40,096 nt of DNA from a bacterium. GTDB lineage: Bacteria; Verrucomicrobiota; Kiritimatiellia; RFP12; UBA1067. The notes under the pieces were generated by a model that did not search any database, was not told where the DNA came from, and was given only the letters and a program-made list of their open reading frames with translations. Shown here one piece after another: positions 1,983-34,450 of the stretch. A program made the translations under genes and the position numbers. The stretch covers positions 1-40,096 of the forward strand of contig JANYBJ010000315.1 in NCBI GenBank assembly GCA_025360845.1, in the 5' to 3' direction. The first letter of the stretch is position 1; every line of letters starts with the position of its first letter.

Positions 1983-4082
1983 TCAGGAGCGGGCTTTGGC
2001 CCGATAGGGTTCGAGCACGGTGGGCTTGGTCTGCTCTTTGAGACGCGCCGCCTCGCAGGCCTGCCGGTAGAGTTCCCCCTGGCTGCGGAAAGGCGACTTG
2101 CCCTTCTCGACCCGTTCGTACGCGCCGTCGGGAAGCAGGCGGCTGGCCTTCTGATTGTCTTTGAAGTAGCATTTCAGGATCTTCAGCATCTGTCGCCGCG
2201 CCTCTTTGTCGAGGACCGGGATCATCAGCTCGATGCGGCGGTCGAGATTGCGCGGCATCCAGTCGGCGCTCGCCATGTAAACCTTTTCGCTGCCGCCGTT
2301 GTAGAAGGCGCAGATGCGGGAGTGCTCCAGATAGCGGTCGATGATGCTGATCACCGTGATGTTCTCGCTCAGCCCCTTCACGCCCGGACGCAGGCAGCAG
2401 ACGCCGCGCACATTGAGCTGAACCTTGACGCCCGCCTGTGACGCCTGATACAGGTGCTCGATCATCTCCGCGTCGGTCAGGGTGTTCACCTTGATCGTGA
2501 CCGCCGCTTTCTCGCCGGCTTTCGCGCGGGCGGTCTCGACATCGATCAGCTCCAGCAGGGTGCTGCGGAGGTTGAAGGGCGACATGCGCAAAAGGTGCAG
2601 CGTCTGCGGTTGCGAATAGCCTGCCACCGCGTTGAAGAACGCCGCCGCGTCGTGTCCGAGTTGCACATCGCTCGTGAAGTAGCCGAGATCGCTGTAGAGT
2701 TTCGCCGTCGTCTCGTTGTAGTTGCCGGTCGCGAAATGGATGTAGCGTACGATGCCCTGCGGTTCGCGCCGCACGATCAGGCAGACCTTGGCGTGTGTTT
2801 TCAGGTTGCGGACGCCATAGATCACCTCCACGCCCGCCTGTTCGAGACGGTGCGCCTGCGTGATGTTGCGGGCCTCGTCGAAGCGGGCCTTCAGTTCAAT
2901 CAGCACGGTCACATGCTTGCCGCGCTGCGCGGCGCGGATCAGCGCCTCCACGATGGCGCTGTCGCTGGCCGTCCGGTAAAGCACCTGCTTGATCGCGAGC
3001 ACGGCCGGATCGTCTGCGGCGTCCTCAACGAGCTTGATCACCGGATCGAAACTCTCGTACGGCAAGTGAAGTAGGAGGCCCTGCGCCGCGAGCTGCGGAA
3101 AAATACTCTCTTTCAGATCGATCAGCGGCGAGGGCTGCGGAGACCACGGCGGATCTTTCAGCGCCTCAAAGCCCTCGACGAAAGCCAGCTTCATGAAGGC
3201 GCGCAAGGCCAAAGGCCCGTCGATCGGATAGATGTCGTTGCGGTCCAACTCGAAGAGGCGCGTCAGGAAAGAGGTCAGTTGACGCGACGCCCGACGCCCG
3301 ATCTCCATCCGGAGACACGCCGTCTCCTTGCGCTCGTCGAGCAGTTCCTGCATGCCGGTCATCAGGTCGGGTGCGAGATCTTCGCGCAACTCGATATCGG
3401 CGTTGCGCGTGACCCGGAACGGCACGCACTCGAGCACCTCGCACCCGTCGAACCAGCGCCCGATCCACTCGGCGACCGCATCCTCCAACAAGACGACGGC
3501 GAGGCCTCCAGGCGAGGGCAGGCGGAGGAAGCGGTTCACATTCGGTCCCAGCGGAATCAGCGCAAAACGTTCCTCCTGTGAGCCGGACGCCGGCGCGAGC
3601 CGCACCGCCATGTGCAGGAGCAGGTTTGCCGGACGGTAGGGACGCCCCTCGACCAGCGACACCGGCGTCAGGATCGACAGGACGTCGTCCTCAAACGTTC
3701 GCAGCAGGATCTTGCGCTGCGCCTCGTTGACCGACGACACCGGCTGGATCTGGAACCCGTTGTCGAACAACTCCCCCCGCAGTTTCCGATAGAGGGCGGA
3801 TTGGTCGGCCGCCATCTTACGGATGCGGCGCGTGACCGCCTGAATCTGTTGCCGCACGGTCAAACCGGAGAGGTCGCGTGCCTTGTGCCCCTCGTTCATC
3901 AGCAGGTCCAGCCCGCCGACGCGCACCATGTAGAACTCGTCGAGGTTGGACGCCGTAATGGCCAGAAACTTCAGGCGCTCCAACAGCGGATTGTCCTGAT
4001 TCAGGCCCTCATCGAGCACGCGCTGGTTGAAGGCGAGCCAACTCAATTCGCGGTTGAAATAGCGGTCTGTAATGGGTTTCAT
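1983..4082 (-). CDS. ppk1: Polyphosphate kinase 1
   Basis: 699 aa; NRELSWLAFNQRVLDE N-terminus, FDEARNI, HAKVCLIVRRE and HFATGNYNE motifs. Confidence 0.97.
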   Translation of the reverse strand: MKPITDRYFNRELSWLAFNQRVLDEGLNQDNPLLERLKFLAITASNLDEFYMVRVGGLDLLMNEGHKARDLSGLTVRQQIQAVTRRIRKMAADQSALYRKLRGELFDNGFQIQPVSSVNEAQRKILLRTFEDDVLSILTPVSLVEGRPYRPANLLLHMAVRLAPASGSQEERFALIPLGPNVNRFLRLPSPGGLAVVLLEDAVAEWIGRWFDGCEVLECVPFRVTRNADIELREDLAPDLMTGMQELLDERKETACLRMEIGRRASRQLTSFLTRLFELDRNDIYPIDGPLALRAFMKLAFVEGFEALKDPPWSPQPSPLIDLKESIFPQLAAQGLLLHLPYESFDPVIKLVEDAADDPAVLAIKQVLYRTASDSAIVEALIRAAQRGKHVTVLIELKARFDEARNITQAHRLEQAGVEVIYGVRNLKTHAKVCLIVRREPQGIVRYIHFATGNYNETTAKLYSDLGYFTSDVQLGHDAAAFFNAVAGYSQPQTLHLLRMSPFNLRSTLLELIDVETARAKAGEKAAVTIKVNTLTDAEMIEHLYQASQAGVKVQLNVRGVCCLRPGVKGLSENITVISIIDRYLEHSRICAFYNGGSEKVYMASADWMPRNLDRRIELMIPVLDKEARRQMLKILKCYFKDNQKASRLLPDGAYERVEKGKSPFRSQGELYRQACEAARLKEQTKPTVLEPYRAKARS

Positions 4083-4100
4083 AGGAATTCTGAGCCCTCT

Positions 4101-5678
4101 TTAAGGATTGCGGATCAGGCACCGCCGCCCGTAGATCTGCTCGAACAGATCGCCTTTCTCGGCCAGCGCGAGCTGCTCCGCGCTGATGTCCACGGGCTGC
4201 GCCGGAATGCAGGTCAGAATCTCGTCCTGCAGGTCAAACCGGATCTCGCCGAGGCTCTGGTCATGCACGCGGTCGAACGCGTCGGCCACGCGCAGGAGCG
4301 CGGCCAGCTTGCAGACCACCAGACGGTCCTCGTGCGGAAGCGCCATATAATCCGGATGGGTCGGTTGCGGCGCGGCCTTGCGGTGGTAACGCGCCACCAG
4401 CGCGATGAGGTTGATGACGCGGGCGTTCAGCCCCGGAAACTCGGTGTGCTGGATGATGTACATCGAGTGCTTGTGGTGGCCGCGCGTGTTGATGAACACG
4501 CCGATGTCGTGCAGCCACGCCGCCACCTCAAGGATGAGGCGGTGCAGCGGCGTGCCGCGGTGTTCGGCCTGCACCAGGTCGAACAGGCGCGTGGAGAGCT
4601 TCGCCACTTGGCGCGCGTGGCGCACGTCGTGGCGGTATTTCAGCCCCGTCTCCGCCGCGATCCGCAAAATGTGGTGGCTCATGCGCGGGTCCCACGCCAA
4701 GCCCTCGACCGCTTCGATGACCAGCCCGTCGCAGAAGGACATGCCGCCGACATAGACCGTTATGAGCGAGAGCGCCTTCGCGATGCGCAGCGCGATCATC
4801 AGCGCCGGACCGAGCGTTTCCGCGTCCGGATAGGCAAGCTGCTCTCTCCGCGCCAACTCGTCGATCGGCTGCGCGATCACCTCTTGCACCAACTTGGCGA
4901 AGGTGGCCACCGGAATCGCCGCCAGCCTCTCCCCTTTCCACTTCGCGAGAATGCGCGAGGCGGCGAACCTCATCTCGCGCCCCAGCAACACCAGTTTGAG
5001 GGAGTCCAGGTTCCGAATGTTCTGCGACAGGTTCAGTTCCATCTCTTTGGCGCGGCCTTCGGCCATTTCGGTCATGCGCGTATCGGGAATGCCCGACTCC
5101 TGCAACTGGTGGCGGATGCGCAGCGAGCCGTTATTGTAGGTCTGCGCGAAGCGGATCTCGCGGTGATCCACGTAGAGCACCTCGGTGGTCAGGCCGCCGA
5201 TCTCCATGACGCAGTACGCGGCCGTGTCGGCCTTCTTGTCCTTGGCGAGGACCGGCTGGAGCGCGAGGTGGTGATAATAGCCGACCTCGCTGATATCCAG
5301 CACGTTCAGGCGAAGGCCGGTCGCAACCGAAAGCCGGTCGATGAACGCATCGCAGTTTTCCGCCTCGCGCACGGCTGCCGTCGCGGTGACCTGCACGGTC
5401 TCCAGCGGAACGCCATACTCGTTGAGCAGGTTCTGATAACTGCGCAGGATCGACACGCACTTTTCGATGGTGGCGTTGCTGATCCGTCTGGAGGCCACCA
5501 CCTCGCGTCCGATCGCCACCGACTGCACGACGCGCTCGAGAATCGTGAACGCGCCCTCGCCCTTGCCTTCCGCGATGGTCATACGGATGAAGGTCGAGCC
5601 GATGTCCATCACCCCCACCGGCGCATGGACCGGCAGGCTTTTCTTTTCATTTCTTTTCACCGTTGGTTCACCTCGCAT
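4101..5678 (-). CDS. Ppx/GppA family phosphatase with C-terminal HD-type domain
   Basis: 525 aa; VMDIGSTFIRMTIAEG ... MEIGGLTTEVLYV; HD-like AAWLHDIGVFIN...HHKHSMYII; directly upstream of ppk1. Confidence 0.9.
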   Translation of the reverse strand: MRGEPTVKRNEKKSLPVHAPVGVMDIGSTFIRMTIAEGKGEGAFTILERVVQSVAIGREVVASRRISNATIEKCVSILRSYQNLLNEYGVPLETVQVTATAAVREAENCDAFIDRLSVATGLRLNVLDISEVGYYHHLALQPVLAKDKKADTAAYCVMEIGGLTTEVLYVDHREIRFAQTYNNGSLRIRHQLQESGIPDTRMTEMAEGRAKEMELNLSQNIRNLDSLKLVLLGREMRFAASRILAKWKGERLAAIPVATFAKLVQEVIAQPIDELARREQLAYPDAETLGPALMIALRIAKALSLITVYVGGMSFCDGLVIEAVEGLAWDPRMSHHILRIAAETGLKYRHDVRHARQVAKLSTRLFDLVQAEHRGTPLHRLILEVAAWLHDIGVFINTRGHHKHSMYIIQHTEFPGLNARVINLIALVARYHRKAAPQPTHPDYMALPHEDRLVVCKLAALLRVADAFDRVHDQSLGEIRFDLQDEILTCIPAQPVDISAEQLALAEKGDLFEQIYGRRCLIRNP

Positions 5679-10986: not shown

Positions 10987-11982
10987 ATGATTATTCGCAC
11001 GACTGCTTACCCGCGGGCGGCGCTCATCGGAAATCCGTCCGACGGCTATTTCGGCAAGACCATCGCCTTCACCTTTTCGAACTTTTCGGCGCGCGTCACG
11101 CTCTACGAGTCGCCCGAGCTGGAGATCGTTCCCAGCCGCCGTGACAGCTCCACGTTCGACAGCATCGCCGCCCTGTACGACGACGTGCGCCTGTTCGGCT
11201 ACTACGGCGGCATCCGGCTGCTCAAGTCGGCCATCAAATCCTTCTACGGCTACTGCCTTGATAACAAGATCGGGCTGCATGGCCATAACTTCACGATCCG
11301 CTACGACTCCGACATCCCCAACCTCGTCGGGCTGGCCGGCTCCAGCGCCATCATCACCGCCACGATGCGCGCGCTGCTCGCCTTCTACGGCGTCTCCATT
11401 CCCAAGCCCCAGCTCGCCAACCTGATCCGCGCCGTGGAGAACCGCGAGCTCGGCATCGCGGCAGGGCTTCAGGACCGCGTGGCCCAAGTCTATCAGGGCA
11501 TGGTGTACATGGACTTCGACAAGGGGCTCTTCGACAAGCAGGGCTTCGGCCACTACGAGCCGCTCCAGCCCGCCCAGTTGCCGCCGCTCTACATCGCCTA
11601 CCGCACCGACCTCTCGGAAGGCTCCGAGGTTTTCCACAACAACATCCGCGAGCGCTTCGACCGCGGCGAACCCCAGGTCGTCGACGCCATGAAGTACTGG
11701 GCCAACCTCACCGTGCAGGCCAAGGACGCGATCCAGCGCGGCGACTGGACGAAACTCTCCGAACTCATGGACGCAAACTTCGACAAGCGCAAAGAGATCT
11801 TCAAGCTCAGCCAAGGCAACTTGAGCATGGTGGCGACGGCCCGCGCGGCCGGCGCGGCCGCCAAGTTCACCGGCTCCGGCGGCGCGATCATCGGCGTCTA
11901 CACCGACGAGGCGATGTTCGCCAAACTGACCGAGGCCTTCGCCTCCCAGAACATCTGTGTCTTCAAACCCACCCTCGTCTGA
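10987..11982 (+). CDS. GHMP-family sugar kinase, glucuronokinase-like
   Basis: 331 aa; PRAALIGNPSDGYFGKTIAFTFSNFSA, VGLAGSSAIITA, FTGSGGAIIGVY. Confidence 0.8.
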   Translation: MIIRTTAYPRAALIGNPSDGYFGKTIAFTFSNFSARVTLYESPELEIVPSRRDSSTFDSIAALYDDVRLFGYYGGIRLLKSAIKSFYGYCLDNKIGLHGHNFTIRYDSDIPNLVGLAGSSAIITATMRALLAFYGVSIPKPQLANLIRAVENRELGIAAGLQDRVAQVYQGMVYMDFDKGLFDKQGFGHYEPLQPAQLPPLYIAYRTDLSEGSEVFHNNIRERFDRGEPQVVDAMKYWANLTVQAKDAIQRGDWTKLSELMDANFDKRKEIFKLSQGNLSMVATARAAGAAAKFTGSGGAIIGVYTDEAMFAKLTEAFASQNICVFKPTLV

Positions 11983-12036
11983 TCTCTTCATGAGTTCCTG
12001 ACAGCCTTCCGCCTAAACCGCAAAAGCCTCTTTCTT

Positions 12037-12924
12037 ATGATCACCAAAGCCGTCATCCCCGCCGCCGGTTTCGGCACGCGGTTCCTGCCCGCCACAAAAG
12101 CCTCGCCCAAGGAGATGCTGCCCATCGTGGACACCCCGGTGATCCAGTACGTGGTCGAAGAGGCCGTGGCCTCGGGCATCACCGACATCCTCATGGTCAT
12201 CGGCAAAGGCAAGCGCGCGCTGGAGGAGCACTTCGACCGCAGCTTCGAGCTTGAGCTTGAACTGGAAGCCAAGGGCAAGCTCAAGGAGCTCGAAAGCATC
12301 CGCGCCATCTCCGACCTCGCGAACATCCATTTCGTGTGGCAGCGCAAGATGCTCGGGCTGGGCGACGCGATCCGCTGCGCCCGCCACCACGTGGGCAGCG
12401 AACCCTTCGCGGTCCTGCTGGGCGACACGCTCATGCAGAGCCTGAGCGGCGTGCCCGCCACGCGGCAGCTCATCGACGTCTACGACCGCTTCGGCGGCTG
12501 CGTGGTGGCGCTGGAGGAGGTGCCGCTGGAGCGCGTCAGCCGCTACGGCGTGATCAGCGGCGAGCAGCTCGACGGGCGCACCTACCGCGTAAACGACATG
12601 GTCGAGAAGCCCTCGCCCAAGGAGGCCCCCTCCAACCTCGTGGTGGCCAGCCGCTACATTCTCACGCCGGACATCTTCGAGTACATCGACGCGGCCAAGC
12701 CCGGCAAAGGCGGCGAGATCCAGATCACCGACGCGCTGCGGGCACGCGTGGCCGCAGGCCAGCCCATGCACGGCTGCCGCGTGCAGGCCCGCCGCCACGA
12801 CGCGGGCAACACGCTGGACTTCATCAAGACCAATATCCTCTACGGCCTCGAACACAAGGACATCGCGCCCGCGCTCTCTGACTTCATCATCGCGAAGGCC
12901 GACGAGCTCCGCAGCAAACGCTGA
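12037..12924 (+). CDS. galU: UTP-glucose-1-phosphate uridylyltransferase
   Basis: 295 aa; KAVIPAAGFGTRFLPATKASPKEMLPIVDTPVIQYVVEEAVASGI; VNDMVEKPSPKEAPSNL. Confidence 0.95.
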   Translation: MITKAVIPAAGFGTRFLPATKASPKEMLPIVDTPVIQYVVEEAVASGITDILMVIGKGKRALEEHFDRSFELELELEAKGKLKELESIRAISDLANIHFVWQRKMLGLGDAIRCARHHVGSEPFAVLLGDTLMQSLSGVPATRQLIDVYDRFGGCVVALEEVPLERVSRYGVISGEQLDGRTYRVNDMVEKPSPKEAPSNLVVASRYILTPDIFEYIDAAKPGKGGEIQITDALRARVAAGQPMHGCRVQARRHDAGNTLDFIKTNILYGLEHKDIAPALSDFIIAKADELRSKR

Positions 12925-12964: not shown

Positions 12965-12996
12965 AAAAAAAGCCCCGCGTTTCCGCGAGGCCTTTT
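12965..12996. terminator. Bidirectional intrinsic terminator between convergent genes
   Basis: AAAAAAAGCCCCGCGTTTCCGCGAGGCCTTTTT hairpin with A-tract and T-tract, between galU (+) and the LsrF-like gene (-). Confidence 0.85.
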
Positions 12997-13012
12997 TGCT
13001 TGTCCCTGGGCG

Positions 13013-13034
13013 GGCGAACAGCCGTTCGCCTCTA
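13013..13034. repeat. REP-like palindrome, copy A, overlapping the LsrF-like gene's stop codon
   Basis: GGCGAAC-AGCC-GTTCGCC-TCTA; the TAG stop (13032-13034) is at the repeat edge, as in copy B. Confidence 0.65.
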
Positions 13035-13901
13035 CTTCAGGTCGTTGAACATCTGGAAGGCATCGGCCGGCTTCATGTTCTTGTGGACGACCGCCGAGAC
13101 CGCCTGGATCATCGCCGCGGGCTTATCGGACTGGAAGACGTTGCGTCCCATGTCCACGCCCGCCGCGCCGCTCTGGATCGCCATGTAGGCCAGCTCCAGC
13201 GCCTCCAGCTCGGGCAGCTTCTTGCCGCCCGCGATCACGATCGGCACCGGGCAGCACGCCACGACCTTCTCGAACCCTTCGGTGTAGTAGGTCTTGACGA
13301 TGTTCGCGCCGTTCTCCGCGCAGACGCGCGAGGCCAGCCCGAAGTAGCGCGCGTCGCGTGCCATATCCTTGCCCACCGCCGTCACGCCCATCACCGGGAT
13401 GCCGACTGCCAAGCCCGCGTCCACCGCGTTGTAGAGATTCGCCACGGTCTCCGCTTCCGTGCTCTGGTCGCCGATCGCCACCATCACCGCGATCGCCGAC
13501 GCGTTCAGCTTCACCGCGTCCTGGATGTCGATGACGACGTTGTGGTTCAGCTCGGTCAGGATCGTCGAGCCCGCGTCGGCCCGCAGGCAGACCGGCTTGC
13601 GGCTGGTCGGCGGCACCAGCGCGCGCAGCACGCCGCGGGCGCACATCAGGCAGTCCGCATACTCGATCAGCGGGGTGATGGTGAGGTCGATGCGCTCCAC
13701 GCCCGAGGTCGGCCCCATGATGAAACCGTGGTCGAACGCCAGCATCACGCTCTTACCCGTCGCGGGGTTGAAGATGCGGCTGAGGCGGTCCTTCATGCCC
13801 CAGTCGAGGTTGTTCGAGCCCTTCAGATAGAAGCCGTCGCTCGCCTGCGCCACGCCAACGCCGTAGCTTTTGCCTTCCCGAATGTCGTCTAAATCTGCCA
13901 T
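13032..13901 (-). CDS. Class I aldolase/thiolase family protein, LsrF-like
   Basis: 289 aa; MADLDDIREGKSYG, LDWGMKDRLSRIFNPATGKSVMLAFDHG, VPIVIAGGKKLPELEAL, GVDMGRNVFQSDKPAAMIQAVSAVVH. Confidence 0.9.
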   Translation of the reverse strand: MADLDDIREGKSYGVGVAQASDGFYLKGSNNLDWGMKDRLSRIFNPATGKSVMLAFDHGFIMGPTSGVERIDLTITPLIEYADCLMCARGVLRALVPPTSRKPVCLRADAGSTILTELNHNVVIDIQDAVKLNASAIAVMVAIGDQSTEAETVANLYNAVDAGLAVGIPVMGVTAVGKDMARDARYFGLASRVCAENGANIVKTYYTEGFEKVVACCPVPIVIAGGKKLPELEALELAYMAIQSGAAGVDMGRNVFQSDKPAAMIQAVSAVVHKNMKPADAFQMFNDLK

Positions 13902-13915
13902 GACCGTCTCCCTTT

Positions 13916-13950
13916 TCTCGATGGAATCGAAAGAATCGATTCTCTCGACA
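13916..13950. repeat. TCGATTC-type palindrome between dhaL and the LsrF-like gene
   Basis: Contains perfect 12-bp palindrome AGAATCGATTCT (13932-13943) within TCTCGATGGAATCGAAAGAATCGATTCTCTCGACA. Confidence 0.7.
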
Positions 13951-14565
13951 TTATTTAACCGTCTTCGCGAACGCGTTGAAGATGCAGGCCATCGACGCGG
14001 AACCCGCGTCGCGCGGACCGATCGAGCGCTCGCCGAGATTCTTCGCGCGGCCGAATTTGGCGCGCATCGCGCAGGTGGCCTCCGAGCCTTTCGCGGCCCC
14101 CGACGCGCCCTTCTGAAACATCGCGGCGACGCCCTCGGCCTGCGCGGCCACCAGCGCCTCAGTCGCCGGGATCAGCGCGTCCATCAGCGTCTTGTCGCCC
14201 ACGCGGGCCTTCGTCGTAAACCCGATCTCTTCGAGACCGCCGGCGAAGACCTTGGCCAGCGCGGCCGCATCGAGTTCCGCCGCGCCCTCCGGTGCCGCGT
14301 CGCTCATGCCTTGCAGCCAAGCGCCGTACAGCGTGCTGGTCGAACCGCACGCCTCGTTCTGCAGCGCGTCGGTCAGCGCCTTGAGATAGCCTTTGAAATC
14401 CGCGCCGTCCGCCTTCCGCATCGCGTTGAAGGCCGTCACGATCGCGGTCCCGTGGTCGCCGTCGCCGCCTGATGCGGCGTCCAGCTCGGAGAAGGTCTTC
14501 TCCTCCGCCCGGATATCCACACCGGCGGCCGCGACCATTTCTTTGAATTGTGAAAGCGTGAGCAT
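13951..14565 (-). CDS. dhaL: Dihydroxyacetone kinase-family L subunit
   Basis: 204 aa; FSELDAASGGDGDHGTAIVTAF, GSTSTLYGAWLQGM, RVGDKTLMDALIPATEAL. Confidence 0.88.
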   Translation of the reverse strand: MLTLSQFKEMVAAAGVDIRAEEKTFSELDAASGGDGDHGTAIVTAFNAMRKADGADFKGYLKALTDALQNEACGSTSTLYGAWLQGMSDAAPEGAAELDAAALAKVFAGGLEEIGFTTKARVGDKTLMDALIPATEALVAAQAEGVAAMFQKGASGAAKGSEATCAMRAKFGRAKNLGERSIGPRDAGSASMACIFNAFAKTVK

Positions 14566-14582
14566 GCCTGTTGGTCTCCCTT

Positions 14583-14643
14583 GTCGAAAGAATCGAGAAA
14601 ACCGAAGGAGTCGAATTCAATCGATTCCTTCGATTCCCTCGAC
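14583..14643. repeat. TCGATTC-rich palindromic element between dhaK and dhaL
   Basis: GTCGAAAGAATCGA (14583-14596) pairs 12/14 with TCGATTCCCTCGAC (14630-14643); inner GAAGGAGTCG / CGATTCCTTC pairs 9/10. Confidence 0.75.
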
Positions 14644-14656
14644 GCTGCCTTCTTCT

Positions 14657-15655
14657 TTACGCCGTCCAATACGGCGTGCGGGCGCAGGCCTTCAGATACG
14701 CCACGTGGTCCGGGTCCAATTTGCAGAGGATCATCTGGAAGCCGGCCATCTCCTGCACGGTCAGGTACTCGCCGCAGGCGCCGGGGGTCACATGGACGCC
14801 TTTCGAGGCCAAAATCTGTGCGGTCTTGCGGTAGACGATCAGCATCTCCATCAGGGTGGTCGCGCCCACGCCGTTGATGATCAGCAGAGCGGTGTCGCCC
14901 GCCTTCACGCCGGTCGCCTGGACGAGCGGCTCGATCATGCGCGCGGCGGTCTCGTCGGCGCTCAGGATCTTGGTGCGTCCGCCGCCGGCCTCGCCGTGCT
15001 GGCCCATGCCGATCTCCATCTCGTCGTCGGGGAGGACCGCGATCACGCCGCCGTTCTGCGGATGGGTGCAGCCGGTCATGGCCACGGCCAGCGTCGCCAT
15101 CTGCTTGTTGAAGCGCTCGCCGATGTCGACGATCTCTTCGAGGCTCTTGCCCGCTTCAGCCGCCGCGCCGACCACCTTGTAGAGCGGGATGCAGCCGGCC
15201 AGGCCGCGCTTATCGTCGATCGGGGTGTCCACGCCGGCCGAGATGTCCTCGTGCGTGACGATCTCGACGACCTTGATGCCTTCCTTCTGCGCGTCGCGCA
15301 GGGCCTTGCTCGCGCTCATGCGGTCGCCCGCGTGGTTCAGCGTCACCAGCAGGATGCCGGCTTCGCGCTTGAACAGGCGCAGCGCCTCCAGCACTTTCGG
15401 CGCGCCCGGCGCGGCGAAGATGTCGCCGACCACGCTGGCGTCGAGCATGCCTTCGCCCACGAACCCGCTCAGCGCCGGCTCATGGCCCGCGCCGCCGAGC
15501 GTGACGATGGCTACCTTGCTCTGATCCTTCGGCGTGGCACGCACCACGACCTTCTCGTTCACCAGCGTGACTTTACCGCTGTAGCACAGCGCCAGGCCTT
15601 CCAACAACTCTTTGGTCAGATTCGCGGGATCATTGACAAACTTTTTCATCGGCAT
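14657..15655 (-). CDS. dhaK: Dihydroxyacetone kinase-family K subunit
   Basis: 332 aa; MKKFVNDPANLTKELLEGLALCYSGKV, LGGAGHEPALSGFVGEGMLDASVVGDIFAAP, MGQHGEAGGGR. Confidence 0.92.
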   Translation of the reverse strand: MPMKKFVNDPANLTKELLEGLALCYSGKVTLVNEKVVVRATPKDQSKVAIVTLGGAGHEPALSGFVGEGMLDASVVGDIFAAPGAPKVLEALRLFKREAGILLVTLNHAGDRMSASKALRDAQKEGIKVVEIVTHEDISAGVDTPIDDKRGLAGCIPLYKVVGAAAEAGKSLEEIVDIGERFNKQMATLAVAMTGCTHPQNGGVIAVLPDDEMEIGMGQHGEAGGGRTKILSADETAARMIEPLVQATGVKAGDTALLIINGVGATTLMEMLIVYRKTAQILASKGVHVTPGACGEYLTVQEMAGFQMILCKLDPDHVAYLKACARTPYWTA

Positions 15656-15692
15656 GATAAGAATCCTTAGATAGCGGTTAACGGTTTATGGG

Positions 15693-16004
15693 TTAGCCCA
15701 ACTGCATCAGTTCGATCGGCATTCCCTGGTCGTAGATGAAGGCGATCTTCAATCCCGGCATCGGCTCGCAGACCGGCCACAGGATGCTCTTGCCGTTGAC
15801 GGCCTCGACGATGTTCTCGACGATGTAAGCCACATGCGTCTCGTCCTGGATCGCCGCGGCCATGGGGCTGTCCGGCTCGAAGTAGAGCCACTCGACCTTG
15901 TAAGTGCTCGCGCCCGCGTCGGTCACCCAAACCTTGAGCGGCTCGACAAACATCATTCCTTCCATCTTCTCGAAAACCGGAATGCCCGTGTGGTGATACG
16001 TCAT
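15693..16004 (-). CDS. Small VOC (glyoxalase)-fold-like protein
   Basis: 103 aa; DETHVAYIVENIVEAVNG...KIAFIYDQGMPIELMQLG resembles a VOC half-module C-terminus. Confidence 0.6.
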   Translation of the reverse strand: MTYHHTGIPVFEKMEGMMFVEPLKVWVTDAGASTYKVEWLYFEPDSPMAAAIQDETHVAYIVENIVEAVNGKSILWPVCEPMPGLKIAFIYDQGMPIELMQLG

Positions 16005-16075
16005 AACTTTCTCCTCTTGTGAACAGACGCGTCCGGCTCTGGTCCGGACGCTGTCGCGTGTTAAAAAACAGAGAC

Positions 16076-16810
16076 TTACAGCGAAACGCCCGGCACCGAG
16101 AAACGCAGGCCCGCGCCATCATGGAAGGTCGCGTACTCGCTCACGATCGCGCCGTCCTTGCCGCCCATCATGAAGTGCCACGTCTCAGGTCCGGGCAGCT
16201 TGCGCACCGAACCGTCGGCTTCCCATTTCTCGACATGGACACTCTTGAGATGCGGGATCTGAACCTTGGAGATCATCGCCTTGGCTTCCGGATACTTGTC
16301 CAGATTGGGCTCGCCAACCTCGCTGAAGCCGTACACATAACCATAGCGGACCTGCCAGCTCTCGATCTTGCAGCGGAGGTCTTTGCCGTCTTTATCCTTC
16401 GTCGCCAAATGCTTGTGCTCCGGGATGGCCTGGTTCGGCAACAGGTAGATCTCGTGACCGAAATACCCTTCGGCCTTCTCGTTGCACCAGAAGACGCCGG
16501 CCATGCCATACGAAAGGAAGTCTCCCTTACCGAAATCCGTCGCCCAGAAAAACCCGTCGTCCTTCTTCAGCGCGGCATAAATCGGCACGTTGAACTTGGT
16601 CATCAGATCGAAATAGGCCTGCTTGGCCTTCGCGCTGTCGAACTTGCCGGCCTTGTAAAAATCCGCATTCTTCATCTGAACCGTCCCCTTTTTCGCTTGG
16701 TGACACGCGTCCCCCGTTACACAACCCCCCGTGAATCCCATCAATCCTGCGCTCAGACCGGCGACCAGAGCACCGGCCAGCACATGAGAGGTAACACCCG
16801 TTTTTTTCAT
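16076..16810 (-). CDS. Exported cupin-fold protein, sugar-isomerase-like
   Basis: MKKTGVTSHVLAGALVAGLSAGLMGFTGGC signal/lipoprotein-like N-terminus; cupin metal motif HEIYLLPNQAIPEHKH and PGPETWHFMMGG. Confidence 0.6.
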   Translation of the reverse strand: MKKTGVTSHVLAGALVAGLSAGLMGFTGGCVTGDACHQAKKGTVQMKNADFYKAGKFDSAKAKQAYFDLMTKFNVPIYAALKKDDGFFWATDFGKGDFLSYGMAGVFWCNEKAEGYFGHEIYLLPNQAIPEHKHLATKDKDGKDLRCKIESWQVRYGYVYGFSEVGEPNLDKYPEAKAMISKVQIPHLKSVHVEKWEADGSVRKLPGPETWHFMMGGKDGAIVSEYATFHDGAGLRFSVPGVSL

Positions 16811-17137
16811 CTGAAGCATCCTTTCGCGTTAACGCACCTCTGTGAGGCGCAAAAAACCGTTTTTTACACTTATTGTAATTCCGGTAGTTTAGCCAAAGCG
16901 TGCCCATCCTGTAAATGCGGAACGCCAACTTTTTTCCCTTTTCCTTCCTCCAACTTATGAACCCGCTCCTTTGGCGGCCGCTTTTTAAAAATCTTTCAGG
17001 CGAATCTTGGTACACGTGGGGTCTAGGTGGTAAACTCTCTTCCGTCATACGCCGTCGTTGACAAACGACTTTCATGTGGCATAATCTACATTGGAACTGT
17101 GGACGATGGTTACGGGTTGGGAAAAATGAGGCATTGC

Positions 17138-20080
17138 ATGAAAGAAAAAGACCGAATATCAGTTCCCAGACAGTGGCTCTGGATTGCGGCCTTTGCCGTA
17201 TCCGCAGTATTGATAGCGATCATCGGCATCTCCCGCCAACGCATCACGGAGGACCATGTGTACGCCGAGCGGGCACGGGATCTTGCGGCCACCGGCATTC
17301 TCAAGGCAGGACAGGTCGCCGAGTGGCGTAAAGAGCGTCTCGCCGACGCGATCCGCTTTGCGCAAGGGCCCACCTTGACGCGGGCGATCGCGAAAACGGA
17401 TGACAGCGATTTGCACACCATGCTGGTCCTCAACCGCAAGGGCTCCTTTTACGAAGACGCGCTTCTTCTCTCCCAGACCGGTGCGATTGTACGGTCAGCC
17501 ACCGACGCACCCATCCCGACGACGCCGGCGACGCAGCGCGCGGTCGCCATTGCTCTTGCGACCCGTTCGCCCACCCTCTCGGACTTCTTTACGAGTGCCG
17601 ACGGCGGCGTTCACATCGACACCGCCGCACCGGTCTGCGAAGCCGACGGACGGCTGATCGGCGCGCTCATCCTGCGCAGCGACGCGGAAGATTTCCTTTA
17701 TCCGCTGATCCGTTCTTGGCCCGTGACCAGCCGAAGCGCGGAAACACTGCTCGTGCGGCGCGAAGGCAAGGACGTGGTCTATCTCAACACGCCGCGCCAC
17801 CCGATCGACAAGGCCATGAAACTGCGTGTGTCCCTCACAAAAACCGACGTGCCTGCCGTACAGGCGGTGCTCGGCAAGCAGGGGTTGTTTCTGGGCAGGG
17901 ACTACCGGGATGTTGAGGTGGTGTCCTTCCTTCACCCCATCGCCAACTCTGACTGGTTCTTGGTCGCCAAAGTGGACCGCAGCGAGCTTCTGTCGGAAGT
18001 CCACTACCGAACGGTCATGACCACGCGGCTCGTGATCCTCGGCATCCTCTTCGTTGCGGCCGTTGCAGCCTTCGGCTCACGGCTCCAGCAGGCCCACGTC
18101 TACCGCAACCTCTACCGCGTGGAGCGGGAGCAGCGGGCGGCCAACGAGAAGTTCCGCACCATTCTCTACAGCATCGGCGATGCGGTCATCACGTCCGACG
18201 ACAAGGGGCATGTGCTCCAGATGAACGCCGTCGCCGAGCAGTTGACCGGCTGGCCGGAGTCCGAGGCGTCCGGGCGTCCCATCGAAGATGTTTTCCACAT
18301 TGTCAGTGAAGATACCCGTGCCCCCGTCCAAAGCCCGGTCTGGCGCGTGTTGCATGGGGGTGAGACCGTGGAATTGGCGAATCCTTCGGTGCTCCTCGCC
18401 CGCGACGGAAAGGAGCATTTGATCTCTGACAGCGGCGCACCGATACGCGGCGAGAACGGCCAGTTGACCGGCGTGGTCATGGTCTTTCGCGACCAAACCG
18501 CAGAACACGCCTCACAGCAGGCGTTGCGGGAAAGCGAGCGCCGCCTGTCCACGCTCATGAACAACCTCCCCGGAATGGCTTACCGGTGCAATTACGACAC
18601 GTATTGGACCATGCATTTCGTGTCGGAGGGGTGCTTCGCCTTGACGGGTTACAGTCCGGCCGACCTGATCGACAATTCACGCCTCGCCTATGCAGACCTG
18701 ATCCATCCCGATGACCGCCAATACGTCTGGAATACGGTCACGCAGGCCCTCAGCACACGGCAACCCTTCACCATGGAATACCGCATCCGCACAGCCGACT
18801 GGGGCGAGAAGTGGGTCTGGGAACGCGGGTGTGCGATCATGGGGACAGACGGTTCGGTCCAGGCGCTGGAGGGTTTCATCACCGACATTTCCGAGCGCAA
18901 ACGCGCCTCCGTAGAACAGGCGAAGCTCGAGGAACAGCTCCACCAGTCGCAAAAGATCGAGGCGGTCGGGCGTCTCGCAGGTGGCGTCGCCCACGATTTC
19001 AACAACATGTTGTCCGTCATCATCGGGAACGCCGAACTGGCCATGGGGCGTCTCGGCAACGCCAATCCGGTCCATTCCGAACTCAGCGAGATCATGACCG
19101 CCAGCAGCCACTCGATCAAACTCGTCAAACAGCTTCTGGCCTTCGCCAGCAAACAGACCATCATGCCCCGCCACCTGAATCTCAACGACACCATCAGCGG
19201 CATGCTCGTGATGTTACGCAGACTCGCGGGAGAAGAGATCGTCGTGGAGTGGCATCCCGACACCGCTCTTTGGTCTGTCCTGCTGGATCCCGGACAGCTC
19301 GACCAGATCCTGGTCAACCTGATCGTCAATGCCCGCGATTCGATCACCGATGTCGGCCGGATCACCATCGAAACCCGCAACGTGCCGTGTTCGACGCTCG
19401 CCGCCGGCGCGCCGCCGGACGGCGCCGCTGCCGTCGACTACGTCTTGTTCTCGATCAGCGATTCCGGCTGCGGCATGGACGCCACCACGAAGTCCCGCAT
19501 CTTTGAGCCTTTCTTCACCACCAAGCAGAGCGGCGCGGGCTCCGGGCTCGGACTTCCCTCCGTATACGGCATCGTCAAACAGAATAAAGGGTTCATCGAG
19601 CTCGACAGCAAGCCGGGGAGCGGTTCGCGGTTCGCCATCTACTTGCCGCGGCAAGACGCGCCGGCATCGTTGCCGGACTCTCAGAAAGAGGTGTCGCTCG
19701 CGCCCCCTTCCGGAACGGAGACCATCCTGTTGGTCGAAGACGAGCCGGCCCTGCTCGCGCTGGCCCAAACCTTGCTCAACAAGCTGGGATACGCGGTATT
19801 GCCCGCCAGCAGTGCGGAAGAGGCGCTCGAACGGGTCAATGCCTTTACAGGAACCATCCATCTGCTGATGACCGACGTCGTCATGCCGGGGATGAGCGGA
19901 CGCGATTTGTGGAAGCAGCTCAGCCGGCAATACCCCGATCTCAAGGTCCTGTTCATGTCCGGCTATACCGCCGACATCATCGCCAATCGGGGGATGAGCG
20001 AAGGCGATTTCCAATTTATTCAGAAGCCCTTTACGCTGGGCAAGCTGGCCGCCAAATTGCGCACAACTCTCTCCTCCTGA
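17138..20080 (+). CDS. Hybrid sensor histidine kinase (periplasmic sensor, PAS-PAS, HisKA, HATPase, REC)
   Basis: Two TM segments flank the sensor; GDAVITSDDKGHVLQMNAVAEQLTG, GGVAHDFNNMLSVIIGNAEL, GSGLGLPSVYGIVKQ, VEDEPALLAL...LLMTDVVMPGMSG. Start inferred downstream of GAGG. Confidence 0.92.
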   Translation: MKEKDRISVPRQWLWIAAFAVSAVLIAIIGISRQRITEDHVYAERARDLAATGILKAGQVAEWRKERLADAIRFAQGPTLTRAIAKTDDSDLHTMLVLNRKGSFYEDALLLSQTGAIVRSATDAPIPTTPATQRAVAIALATRSPTLSDFFTSADGGVHIDTAAPVCEADGRLIGALILRSDAEDFLYPLIRSWPVTSRSAETLLVRREGKDVVYLNTPRHPIDKAMKLRVSLTKTDVPAVQAVLGKQGLFLGRDYRDVEVVSFLHPIANSDWFLVAKVDRSELLSEVHYRTVMTTRLVILGILFVAAVAAFGSRLQQAHVYRNLYRVEREQRAANEKFRTILYSIGDAVITSDDKGHVLQMNAVAEQLTGWPESEASGRPIEDVFHIVSEDTRAPVQSPVWRVLHGGETVELANPSVLLARDGKEHLISDSGAPIRGENGQLTGVVMVFRDQTAEHASQQALRESERRLSTLMNNLPGMAYRCNYDTYWTMHFVSEGCFALTGYSPADLIDNSRLAYADLIHPDDRQYVWNTVTQALSTRQPFTMEYRIRTADWGEKWVWERGCAIMGTDGSVQALEGFITDISERKRASVEQAKLEEQLHQSQKIEAVGRLAGGVAHDFNNMLSVIIGNAELAMGRLGNANPVHSELSEIMTASSHSIKLVKQLLAFASKQTIMPRHLNLNDTISGMLVMLRRLAGEEIVVEWHPDTALWSVLLDPGQLDQILVNLIVNARDSITDVGRITIETRNVPCSTLAAGAPPDGAAAVDYVLFSISDSGCGMDATTKSRIFEPFFTTKQSGAGSGLGLPSVYGIVKQNKGFIELDSKPGSGSRFAIYLPRQDAPASLPDSQKEVSLAPPSGTETILLVEDEPALLALAQTLLNKLGYAVLPASSAEEALERVNAFTGTIHLLMTDVVMPGMSGRDLWKQLSRQYPDLKVLFMSGYTADIIANRGMSEGDFQFIQKPFTLGKLAAKLRTTLSS

Positions 20081-20106: not shown

Positions 20107-21387
20107 ATGCAACGTATACTCGCCCTCGCCTTCCTCCTCGCCTGCATGAGTTCACTTCAAGCCCAGACCCCTTACAAGGCGGACTGGGAATCTCTCGACA
20201 AGCGCCCCATCCCGCAGTGGTGGCAAGAGGCGAAATTCGGTATTTTCATTCACTGGGGCGTCTACGCCGTACCCGCCTACGCGCCCACCGACGAGGCGAA
20301 CGTTTACGCGAAGTACTCCGAGCATTACGACAACCGGCTGCGCACGAAGACCCCGGCCTTCACCAATTACCATGCCCGCGTTTACGGCGACCGCGTCGCC
20401 TATGCCGACTTTGCCTCACAGTTCCGCGCCGAGCATTTCAACCCCGACCAATGGGCCGACCTCTTCAAAAAATCGGGTGCCAAATACGTGGTCCTCACCT
20501 CGAAACACCATGACGGCTACGCGCTCTGGCCCAGCGCCTACAGCCCGCGCTGGAACAGCCAGTTCCTCGGCTCCCACCGCGACCTGGCCGGCGACCTGAT
20601 CGAAGCGGTCCGCAAACAGGGCCTGCACATGGGTTACTACTACTCGCTGCTCGAATGGGGCAACCCGCTCTACTCCAAAGAGACCATCGGCCGCTGGTTC
20701 ACCGAGATGAACTTCCCGCAGATGAAGGAGCTCGTCACTCGCTACAAGCCCGACATCGTCTGGACCGACGGCGAGTGGGATTACTCGGACGAGGAGCTGC
20801 ACAGCGTCGACTTCCTCGCCTGGCTCTACAACGAGTCGCCCGTCAAAGACACCGTGGTGGTCAACGACCGCTGGGGCAACAAGACCCGCGGCCTGCACGG
20901 CGGCCACTACACCACCGAGTACGACCTCGTCCACACAGGCAGCGCCCTGGACACCCAGTTCGTTCACCCGTGGGAGGAGTGCCGCGGCATCGGCGGCTCC
21001 TTCGGGTTCAACCGCTTCGAGACCACCACCGACTACATGACCTCCGCGCAGTGCGTCGAAACCCTCGTCGAAAAAGTCAGCCGCGGCGGCAACCTGCTGC
21101 TCAATATCGGACCGCAGGCCGACGGCCTCATCCCTGTGATCATGCAGGAGCGCCTGCTCGACATGGGCAAGTGGCTGGAGGTCAACGGCGAGGCCATCTA
21201 CGGCACCACCGCGTGGGGGTTCCGCCCTAAAAACATGCGCGAAACGAAGGTCTACTTCTCCAAGAAGCCCGACGCGCTCTACATGATCTGCGCGCGCTGG
21301 CCGCAGGCGCCGCTGGTGATCGACCATGTCGCCAAGGCCGAGACCGTCACGCTGCTCGGCAGCAAGCTGCCCGTGACCTTCGCCTGA
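20107..21387 (+). CDS. GH29 alpha-L-fucosidase, signal peptide; C-terminus interrupted by in-frame TGA
   Basis: MQRILALAFLLACMSSLQAQ signal; WWQEAKFGIFIHWGVYAVPAY, YAKYSEHYDNRL, DIVWTDGEWDYS. Homologous-looking reading continues in frame to 21486. Confidence 0.93.
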   Translation: MQRILALAFLLACMSSLQAQTPYKADWESLDKRPIPQWWQEAKFGIFIHWGVYAVPAYAPTDEANVYAKYSEHYDNRLRTKTPAFTNYHARVYGDRVAYADFASQFRAEHFNPDQWADLFKKSGAKYVVLTSKHHDGYALWPSAYSPRWNSQFLGSHRDLAGDLIEAVRKQGLHMGYYYSLLEWGNPLYSKETIGRWFTEMNFPQMKELVTRYKPDIVWTDGEWDYSDEELHSVDFLAWLYNESPVKDTVVVNDRWGNKTRGLHGGHYTTEYDLVHTGSALDTQFVHPWEECRGIGGSFGFNRFETTTDYMTSAQCVETLVEKVSRGGNLLLNIGPQADGLIPVIMQERLLDMGKWLEVNGEAIYGTTAWGFRPKNMRETKVYFSKKPDALYMICARWPQAPLVIDHVAKAETVTLLGSKLPVTFA

Positions 21388-32887: not shown

Positions 32888-34450
32888 TCACGGTTTCGCC
32901 GCAGCGACCCCCGGCTTCTGCGGCGCAGGTCCGCCGCCGAACGCGGCGTCGATCAGCGGCTGCGGCAGCGGGCGGGACAGCAAACTGACCAGCGGCACGA
33001 CCAGGAGGGGCAGGAACATCGTGATGGCCCCCGCGAGAGGCACGCCGTCTTGTCCCCACCGGGGAAAGAGGGTAAACGCGCTCGCCAGTCCGGCGGCGAT
33101 ACCCGCATAGACCCCCGCCAGCGAGGTCCGCCTCCAGAACAGGCCGTACAGGTACGGGGCGAGGAACACGCCGGCCAGCGTGCTCCACGACATGATCATC
33201 AGGTTCACGATGAAAACCGGCCGCTTCAGGGCGATGTAGAGCGAGCACCCCACAAACACGGCACACATGACGCGCAGCAAGACCATCGTCCGCTTGGAGT
33301 TGGCGTGCCGGTTCACGAACGCGCCGTAAAGGTCGATGGCAATGGCCGAACTGGACACCAGCACCAAGGACGACAGGCTGGACATGGAGGCCGAGAAAAC
33401 CATCAGCACGATCACCATGATGAGCACGGCGGGCAGGCCGGATGTCGTGATGAAATGCGGCATGATCTTATCCCAGATCGGCCCCTTCGGACTCATCAAC
33501 TCCGGCGGCAGTTTCGCGCCGTAGTAAAGGTGCGTCAGCGCGCCGCTGTAATAGGCGCCGAACGCCATGAAGAGCGCGAAAACACCGGCAATGACCATGG
33601 CCCGATTGACGTCGTCGCGACTGCGGATGGAGTAGAATTTTTGCACCATCTGGGGCAGCGCCCACGGCCCGAAGCTCGTGATCAGCACCAGCGACAACAG
33701 CGTGAGCCAGCCCGGCACGCTCACCGCCAGCCAGCTTCCGGCCCCCAGCGCCTTCACGCTTCCCAGTCCCGGCGCGAACGACGGGTTTGACAGCAGCTTG
33801 CCCGTGGCCTGAACGAAGCCGCCGATCTCCGGCCGGTGCGCCAGGAGATAGACCATAATCATCACGCCAACGAACTCAATGATCCCCCGGATGAAATCGC
33901 TGACGGCGACTGCAAAATAGCCTCCCATGACCAGATAGACGGCCGTCAGCGCGGTCAAGAAGTAAAGCGCGCTTTCGTAGGAGATGTGGAGGGTCATCTC
34001 GAAGAGGTAACTTAAGCCCATCAGCACCGACGCCGAATACGGAACGAGGAAAATGAACACGACCAGAGCAGCGACGACCTGAAGCGGCTTGTGGCCGTAA
34101 CGCGCGCAGAGAAACTCCGGCATGGTGATGGCGTTCAGGCGGACCGTCATGTCCCGCGTCCGGCCCGCCAGCAGCTTCCATGCAAGGATGGTGCCGATGA
34201 GCGTGTTGCCGAGCACGATCCACATCGTGTGGATGCCGAACCCCCACCCTAGTTTGCCGGCGTAGCCGATGAACAGAACAGCCGAAAAATACGTGGTTCC
34301 ATAGGCAAAGGCACTCATCCACGGGCCCAGCGTGCGCCCGCCCAGAAAGAAATCCCCGACCGACCGGGTCCGCCGCATGCACCAGTAACCGATCCCCAGC
34401 ATCGCCAAGACATAGCTCACAACCACGCCCATATAGATCCACGAACTCAT
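32888..34450 (-). CDS. Sodium:solute symporter (SSS family)
   Basis: SVGDFFLGGRTLGPWMSAFAYGTTYFSAVLFIGYAGKLGWGFG; about 13 TM segments; FSASMSSLSSLVLVSSSAIAIDLYG. Confidence 0.9.
   Translation of the reverse strand: MSSWIYMGVVVSYVLAMLGIGYWCMRRTRSVGDFFLGGRTLGPWMSAFAYGTTYFSAVLFIGYAGKLGWGFGIHTMWIVLGNTLIGTILAWKLLAGRTRDMTVRLNAITMPEFLCARYGHKPLQVVAALVVFIFLVPYSASVLMGLSYLFEMTLHISYESALYFLTALTAVYLVMGGYFAVAVSDFIRGIIEFVGVMIMVYLLAHRPEIGGFVQATGKLLSNPSFAPGLGSVKALGAGSWLAVSVPGWLTLLSLVLITSFGPWALPQMVQKFYSIRSRDDVNRAMVIAGVFALFMAFGAYYSGALTHLYYGAKLPPELMSPKGPIWDKIMPHFITTSGLPAVLIMVIVLMVFSASMSSLSSLVLVSSSAIAIDLYGAFVNRHANSKRTMVLLRVMCAVFVGCSLYIALKRPVFIVNLMIMSWSTLAGVFLAPYLYGLFWRRTSLAGVYAGIAAGLASAFTLFPRWGQDGVPLAGAITMFLPLLVVPLVSLLSRPLPQPLIDAAFGGGPAPQKPGVAAAKP

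Follow-up and report, generated by a model that had tools for sequence, protein, structure and literature searches.

A conserved five-gene operon of Verrucomicrobiota combining a probably exported cupin, a DhaK/DhaL-type kinase and an LsrF-type aldolase

The five genes and their products

The window analysed here is a stretch of 40,096 nucleotides (contig JANYBJ010000315.1, assembly GCA_025360845.1) from a bacterium of the kiritimatiellial lineage UBA1067, phylum Verrucomicrobiota. Its minus strand carries at 13032-16810 a set of genes for a cupin, a protein of the VOC superfamily, the kinase subunits DhaK and DhaL, and an LsrF-type aldolase/thiolase. A sequence-only reading had described them as five adjacent genes with short gaps, and all five open reading frames are present, separated by 71, 37, 91 and 49 bases in the order cupin–VOC–dhaK–dhaL–lsrF. 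The arrangement looks like an operon. The Shine-Dalgarno-like sequence AAAGGA lies upstream of position 16810, which is probably the cupin start, as that reading implied, rather than 16819. A stem-loop with a T-tract (12968..12998, minus strand) follows lsrF and is a probable terminator between convergent genes; it is strong (z = -3.7) and absent from the output of a simple scan.

The cupin (16076..16810, minus strand) matches no Pfam or NCBIfam family. It shows detectable homology to D-lyxose/D-mannose cupin isomerases (PDB 2y0o and 7nzo), with E-values against the D-lyxose isomerase structures of about 2e-7 for the single sequence and 5e-10 for a profile, and the HxH, Glu and His metal ligands are kept in the alignment. 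The operon protein differs from these distant relatives in its longer N-terminal part and in an export signal. This signal is of the lipoprotein type (MKKTGVTSHVLAGALVAGLSAGLMGFTGG followed by C30; 16721..16810, minus strand), and the G29-C30 pair behind its hydrophobic stretch is nearly invariant among related cupins. Most homologues, once extended upstream, carry a lipobox, while Tat-type RR motifs are found on the cupins of loci L105, L053 and L108 and on both Aureibacter copies, and Sec-like signals on those of L058 and L063. The L005 cupin has no export signal, possibly owing to an assembly error. The N-termini of the VOC, DhaK, DhaL and LsrF proteins begin directly at their domains. Since nearly all cupin homologues bear an export signal, the cupin, and with it the isomerase step, is predicted to be probably extracytoplasmic. 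At locus L109, a cupin resembling D-lyxose/D-mannose isomerases (NF051472, 272 bits against a cut-off of 350) and a dehydrogenase E1-beta-like protein precede lsrF.

The VOC protein (15693..16004, minus strand; 103 aa) likewise has no Pfam or NCBIfam family match. Its structural model is confident (pLDDT 94.4), and the Foldseek matches are glyoxalase I and methylmalonyl-CoA epimerase folds. The modelled fold and an invariant His/Glu metal site (H5, E38/E43, H57 and E98) place it in the VOC superfamily, as a putative isomerase/epimerase.

DhaK (14657..15655, minus strand) and DhaL (13951..14565, minus strand) are recognized by the Pfam families Dak1 (322 bits) and Dak2 (119 bits), respectively, and DhaL contains the nucleotide-binding Asp cluster GDGDHG. 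Both subunits score under every NCBIfam equivalog cut-off, DhaK reaching 290 against 406 bits. Comparison with the DhaK proteins of E. coli and L. lactis shows that His56, Asp109 and His218 (E. coli numbering) are retained in all complete operon DhaKs, the covalent histidine lying in a Gln-His-Gly-Glu motif; Lys104 is replaced by Leu and Tyr106 by His, which sets these proteins apart as a distinct subfamily. The roles given to these residues are those generally accepted for DhaK. The sequence-only reading had also noted the lack of DhaM, and this extends beyond the window: no dhaM exists anywhere in the window genome, and TIGR02364 is absent from all 16 operon genomes tested, in each of which the operon DhaK is the sole DhaK gene. 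ATP, rather than phosphoenolpyruvate, is thus the likely phosphate donor.

With the DhaKLM system and the ATP-dependent dihydroxyacetone kinases, the operon kinase has in common the DhaK and DhaL subunits, the covalent His218 site and the Asp cluster; it differs from them in the missing DhaM, the loss of Lys104 and the linkage to a cupin and an aldolase. We regard it as very improbable that it is an ordinary dihydroxyacetone kinase co-transcribed with an unrelated aldolase. Intact Dak1 and Dak2 domains and its position as the only DhaK in the genome would agree with that role, but the Lys104 replacement in every complete member, the scores below all DhaK equivalog cut-offs, the absence of dhaM and the conserved partners argue against it.

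The last gene product, the LsrF-type class I aldolase/thiolase (13032..13901, minus strand), is the only operon protein above an NCBIfam equivalog cut-off. It scores 66 bits with Pfam DeoC/LacD and 446.9 bits, against a cut-off of 297, with the NCBIfam model for LsrF, the 3-hydroxy-2,4-pentadione 5-phosphate (P-HPD) thiolase (NF006081). From this naming and from what is generally known of LsrF, thiolase activity may be within its range. The equivalents of Lys203, Asp57, His58, Asp251 and Arg254, residues of the LsrF active site named in a structural study (PMC2728841), are kept in the window protein and invariant in all ungapped type-A LsrF members. In a FastTree phylogeny the operon LsrFs form a clade with a support of 0.92, and the single E. 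coli LsrF used falls outside it.

Conservation in Verrucomicrobiota and beyond

With the VOC protein as query, a scan covering 85,462 species yielded 13 loci, all of which retain the cupin–VOC–dhaK–dhaL–lsrF order; lsrF is cut in L004 and L008 and lies past the contig end in L013 (3/13). Apart from one Akkermansia muciniphila and one uncultured bacterium, the corresponding records are titled Verrucomicrobia or Kiritimatiellae. The flanking genes of the window are retained in the closest locus only and vary elsewhere. Because the same order recurs in 13 of 13 independent loci, it is far beyond what chance would produce.

The sequence-only reading had proposed searching related genomes for co-occurrence of the five families, and the genes do reappear in the same order, with variants, in several families and classes of the phylum. 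All five are present in L058, L063, L053 and L105; L051 has no recognisable cupin; L046 has none either, and two PF06439 genes lie within or adjoin its operon. In genomes G085 and G282, lsrF is found on a separate contig. Hosts with the same gene order include numerous uncultured bacteria of the gut, the rumen and sediments. VOC homologues on their own also occur in unrelated settings, including a cluster of 2-keto-3-deoxy-6-phosphogluconate aldolase, aldehyde dehydrogenase and mandelate racemase-like genes, so the VOC protein alone cannot define the pathway. Literature searches, with poor coverage of subscription journals, found no paper on this gene set. We conclude that this is a real and widely conserved operon of known enzyme families, apparently undescribed.

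Extended clusters with insertions and a largely kept gene order are found on plasmid records of two Bacteroidota, Parabacteroides distasonis and Aureibacter tunicatorum. The Parabacteroides cluster runs from IclR through a beta-propeller/MauG-like dihaem protein, a RidA/FkbO-like protein, the cupin, an FGE-HZS_alpha-NPCBM protein and CcsA to VOC, DhaK, DhaL, LsrF, a further beta-propeller, an MFS transporter and GH130. That of Aureibacter begins with an FGE-HZS_alpha protein, a beta-propeller, the cupin, a RidA-like protein and a c-type cytochrome, and continues with LsrF, DhaL, DhaK, VOC, DUF1097 and, farther along, a butyrate kinase. On another Aureibacter plasmid, an HZS_alpha gene is accompanied by the cupin, the RidA-like protein, the cytochrome and IclR, with neither the kinase nor the aldolase, which indicates that the cupin is able to travel with the oxidative part alone. 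Parabacteroides distasonis is cultivable, and genetics on the extended version is therefore feasible.

In a second type of cluster (L095-L099, L113 and L124), lsrF and dhaKL are accompanied by a bifunctional aldolase/SDR, two IolE-like TIM-barrel proteins and an ABM protein weakly resembling LsrG; its DhaK has Asn or Gly at Lys104, and most of its LsrFs nest within the operon LsrF clade. In L117, L118 and L121, lsrF stands beside a class II aldolase and SDR genes akin to that of the bifunctional enzyme, in some of them along with ribulose-phosphate epimerase or rhamnulokinase-like genes.

Association with HZS_alpha cytochromes and other neighbours

Operon-type DhaK (E <= 1e-80) and the HZS_alpha dihaem c-type cytochromes (PF18582) were called in a sample of 390 genomes of the phylum. 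HZS_alpha is present in 27 of the 27 genomes with operon-type DhaK, compared with 72 of 390 overall. With units treated as independent, a hypergeometric test gives p = 1e-22 for genomes, 7e-12 for genera and, with the family total estimated at 75, about 4e-6 for families. In the window's own family, the operon is absent from all nine listed HZS_alpha-negative genomes. Five records (L104, L058 and L128-L130) have HZS_alpha genes within the cluster or close to it. The proteins examined are large, carry signal peptides where complete, and contain a pair of CXXCH motifs spaced by about 50 residues. This link, like the exported cupin, is new relative to the sequence-only reading. HZS_alpha is not sufficient for the operon, as many positive genomes lack it, and its role in the pathway is suggested by association. 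In the window genome (G000), HZS_alpha dihaem proteins number 35 and PF06439 genes 19, an unusual expansion; its HZS_alpha genes are mostly solitary. PF06439 (3-keto-disaccharide hydrolase) was considered as the sole partner in view of L046 and rejected, since it is common throughout the family with or without the operon and does not discriminate.

Two clusters are flanked by acyl kinases. In L105, a 645-aa phosphotransacetylase/acetate-butyrate-kinase-like fusion lies directly 3' of lsrF, and the Aureibacter butyrate kinase, four genes from VOC, is 36% identical to it. These neighbours give the chief indication that an acyl-CoA may be formed by LsrF. An SSF symporter gene immediately precedes the operon in L102 and L116; in L009 it is one gene removed, beside a rhamnosidase-like gene and an XylR-like regulator. 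Together, the SSF, rhamnosidase-like, GH28, NAGLU and GH130 neighbours, which are inconsistent between loci, point to glycans.

A proposed route for extracytoplasmic sugars

The sequence-only reading had proposed an isomerase–kinase–aldolase/thiolase logic, which remains the simplest reading and is partly supported: the co-occurrence of the genes and the lack of dhaM agree with it, while the export signals of the cupins would probably place the isomerase outside the cytoplasm. With moderate confidence, we suggest that the operon catabolises a sugar, or an oxidised sugar, set free beyond the cytoplasmic membrane. The reactions that we infer would run as follows. The exported cupin would convert an aldose to a ketose, which would enter the cell through a symporter, of the SSF or MFS type in relatives. 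DhaK and DhaL would then phosphorylate, with ATP, the CH2OH group beside the ketone, the substrate being held covalently on the conserved His218, and the VOC protein may shift the carbonyl or invert a centre. Finally, the LsrF-type enzyme would use its Schiff-base lysine to split the C3-C4 bond, giving dihydroxyacetone phosphate (DHAP) and a short aldehyde, or an acyl-CoA by thiolysis. For this last step we lean slightly towards retro-aldol cleavage, with thiolysis a little short of an even chance. The route draws on what the sequences themselves show: the conserved gene content and order amid varying flanks, the cupin export signals, the altered pocket of the sole DhaK, the lack of dhaM, the intact LsrF residues, and the SSF, MFS, GH130 and acyl-kinase neighbours.

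The rhamnose, fucose, 5-deoxyribose and apiose routes proceed by isomerase, kinase and aldolase. The operon would share with them this three-step logic leading to DHAP, but its enzyme families all differ from theirs and its isomerase is predicted to be exported.

Several observations weigh against the proposed route. The likeness of the cupin to D-lyxose isomerase is only distant at the sequence level, and its structure prediction was too poor to be used (pLDDT 40) and was discarded. The first step is not constant, because the cupin-less L046 is instead flanked or interrupted by its two PF06439 genes. In some genomes lsrF lies away from dhaK, and transporters adjoin only a minority of the loci.

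Two specific versions of this general model can be formulated. In the plain rare-sugar version, a D-lyxose- or D-mannose-like aldose would be converted to the ketose and the ketose 1-phosphate and cleaved to DHAP and glycolaldehyde, glyceraldehyde or lactaldehyde; the VOC protein would act as an epimerase or mutarotase, and the link to the cytochromes would be incidental. The homology of the cupin to D-lyxose isomerase, the intact class I aldolase residues and the glycoside hydrolases, SSF transporters and sugar-type regulators near some loci are consistent with this version. It leaves unexplained the exported cupin and the CcsA, cytochromes and acyl kinases of the extended clusters, and we hold it as a tentative possibility.

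The thiolytic version starts from a 3-keto-aldose, produced by exported dihaem HZS_alpha proteins or by 3-keto-glycoside enzymes, which the cupin would turn into a 2,3-diulose. DhaKL would phosphorylate C1, the VOC protein, in the role of LsrG, would form a 2,4-diulose 1-phosphate, and LsrF with CoA would release DHAP and an acyl-CoA, from which an acyl kinase would gain ATP. This version uses every enzyme as well as the cytochromes, which it connects by association, and it draws on the HZS_alpha co-occurrence and clustering, the CXXCH pairs and export signals, CcsA in Parabacteroides, the acyl kinases at two clusters and PF06439 in L046. Against it, the function of HZS_alpha outside anammox is not known, and the hydrazine-synthase residues are reported not to be conserved there (PMC12758564); many genomes have HZS_alpha without the operon, PF06439 is common regardless of it, and common descent or a glycan-degrading way of life may account for part of the HZS_alpha association. 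We consider this version unlikely as a whole. Broader still, and about as unlikely, is the idea that sugars or glycans are oxidised extracytoplasmically by HZS_alpha cytochromes and that the operon is dedicated to assimilating their keto-sugar product; Lsr chemistry (diulose phosphate isomerisation and CoA thiolysis to DHAP and acyl-CoA) would then extend beyond quorum signals to bulk carbohydrate.

The sequence-only reading had also raised a route for autoinducer-2 (AI-2), with DhaKL replacing LsrK. The Lsr pathway of E. coli and Salmonella (LsrK-LsrG-LsrF) has the same LsrF active-site residues and a kinase, isomerase and aldolase/thiolase logic in common with the operon. In the operon, however, the kinase is DhaKL rather than an FGGY protein, the isomerase is a VOC protein rather than LsrG, and an exported cupin is added. 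Among the annotated window genes there is no LsrK, LsrG, Lsr transporter or Lsr regulator, as had largely been noted from the sequence. LuxS (PF02664) was found neither in the window genome nor in any family genome known to carry the operon; it is missing from G102, G230, G259, G279, G085, G282 and G327. Conversely, lsrF was not found in the LuxS-positive family genomes G173 and G185 (two of five LuxS-positive genomes covered). AI-2 users need not produce AI-2, and consumption of AI-2 (4,5-dihydroxy-2,3-pentanedione), with DhaKL standing in for LsrK and VOC for LsrG, would fit the LsrF score above the P-HPD thiolase cut-off and the presence of a weakly LsrG-like protein next to lsrF and dhaKL in the second cluster type. 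Without LuxS, the AI-2 would have to be foreign; the window LsrF lies outside the E. coli branch, and the exported cupin and the cytochrome association would also be left unexplained. The AI-2 route is therefore disfavoured and, in our view, improbable.

If confirmed, the proposed route for extracytoplasmic sugars would add a carbohydrate pathway with an isomerase outside the cytoplasm, give a role to DhaK/DhaL and LsrF homologues in bacteria without DhaM or LuxS, where automatic annotation labels such proteins AI-2 or dihydroxyacetone enzymes, and offer a testable entry into the function of HZS_alpha proteins.

Within the operon, the dhaL-lsrF (13902-13950) and dhaK-dhaL (14566-14656) spacers have TCGA-based 9-nt repeats in common and form inverted repeats with 24-nt arms that are 92% complementary. 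Around it, the window contains genes for a GHMP kinase with a nucleotidyltransferase (10987-12924, plus strand) and a hybrid PAS histidine kinase (17027-20080, plus strand), both kept beside the operon within the same genus only, an alpha-L-fucosidase (20107-21387, plus strand) and an SSF symporter (32888-34450, minus strand). Farther away, polyphosphate kinase and Ppx/GppA genes adjoin each other at 1983-5678 on the minus strand.

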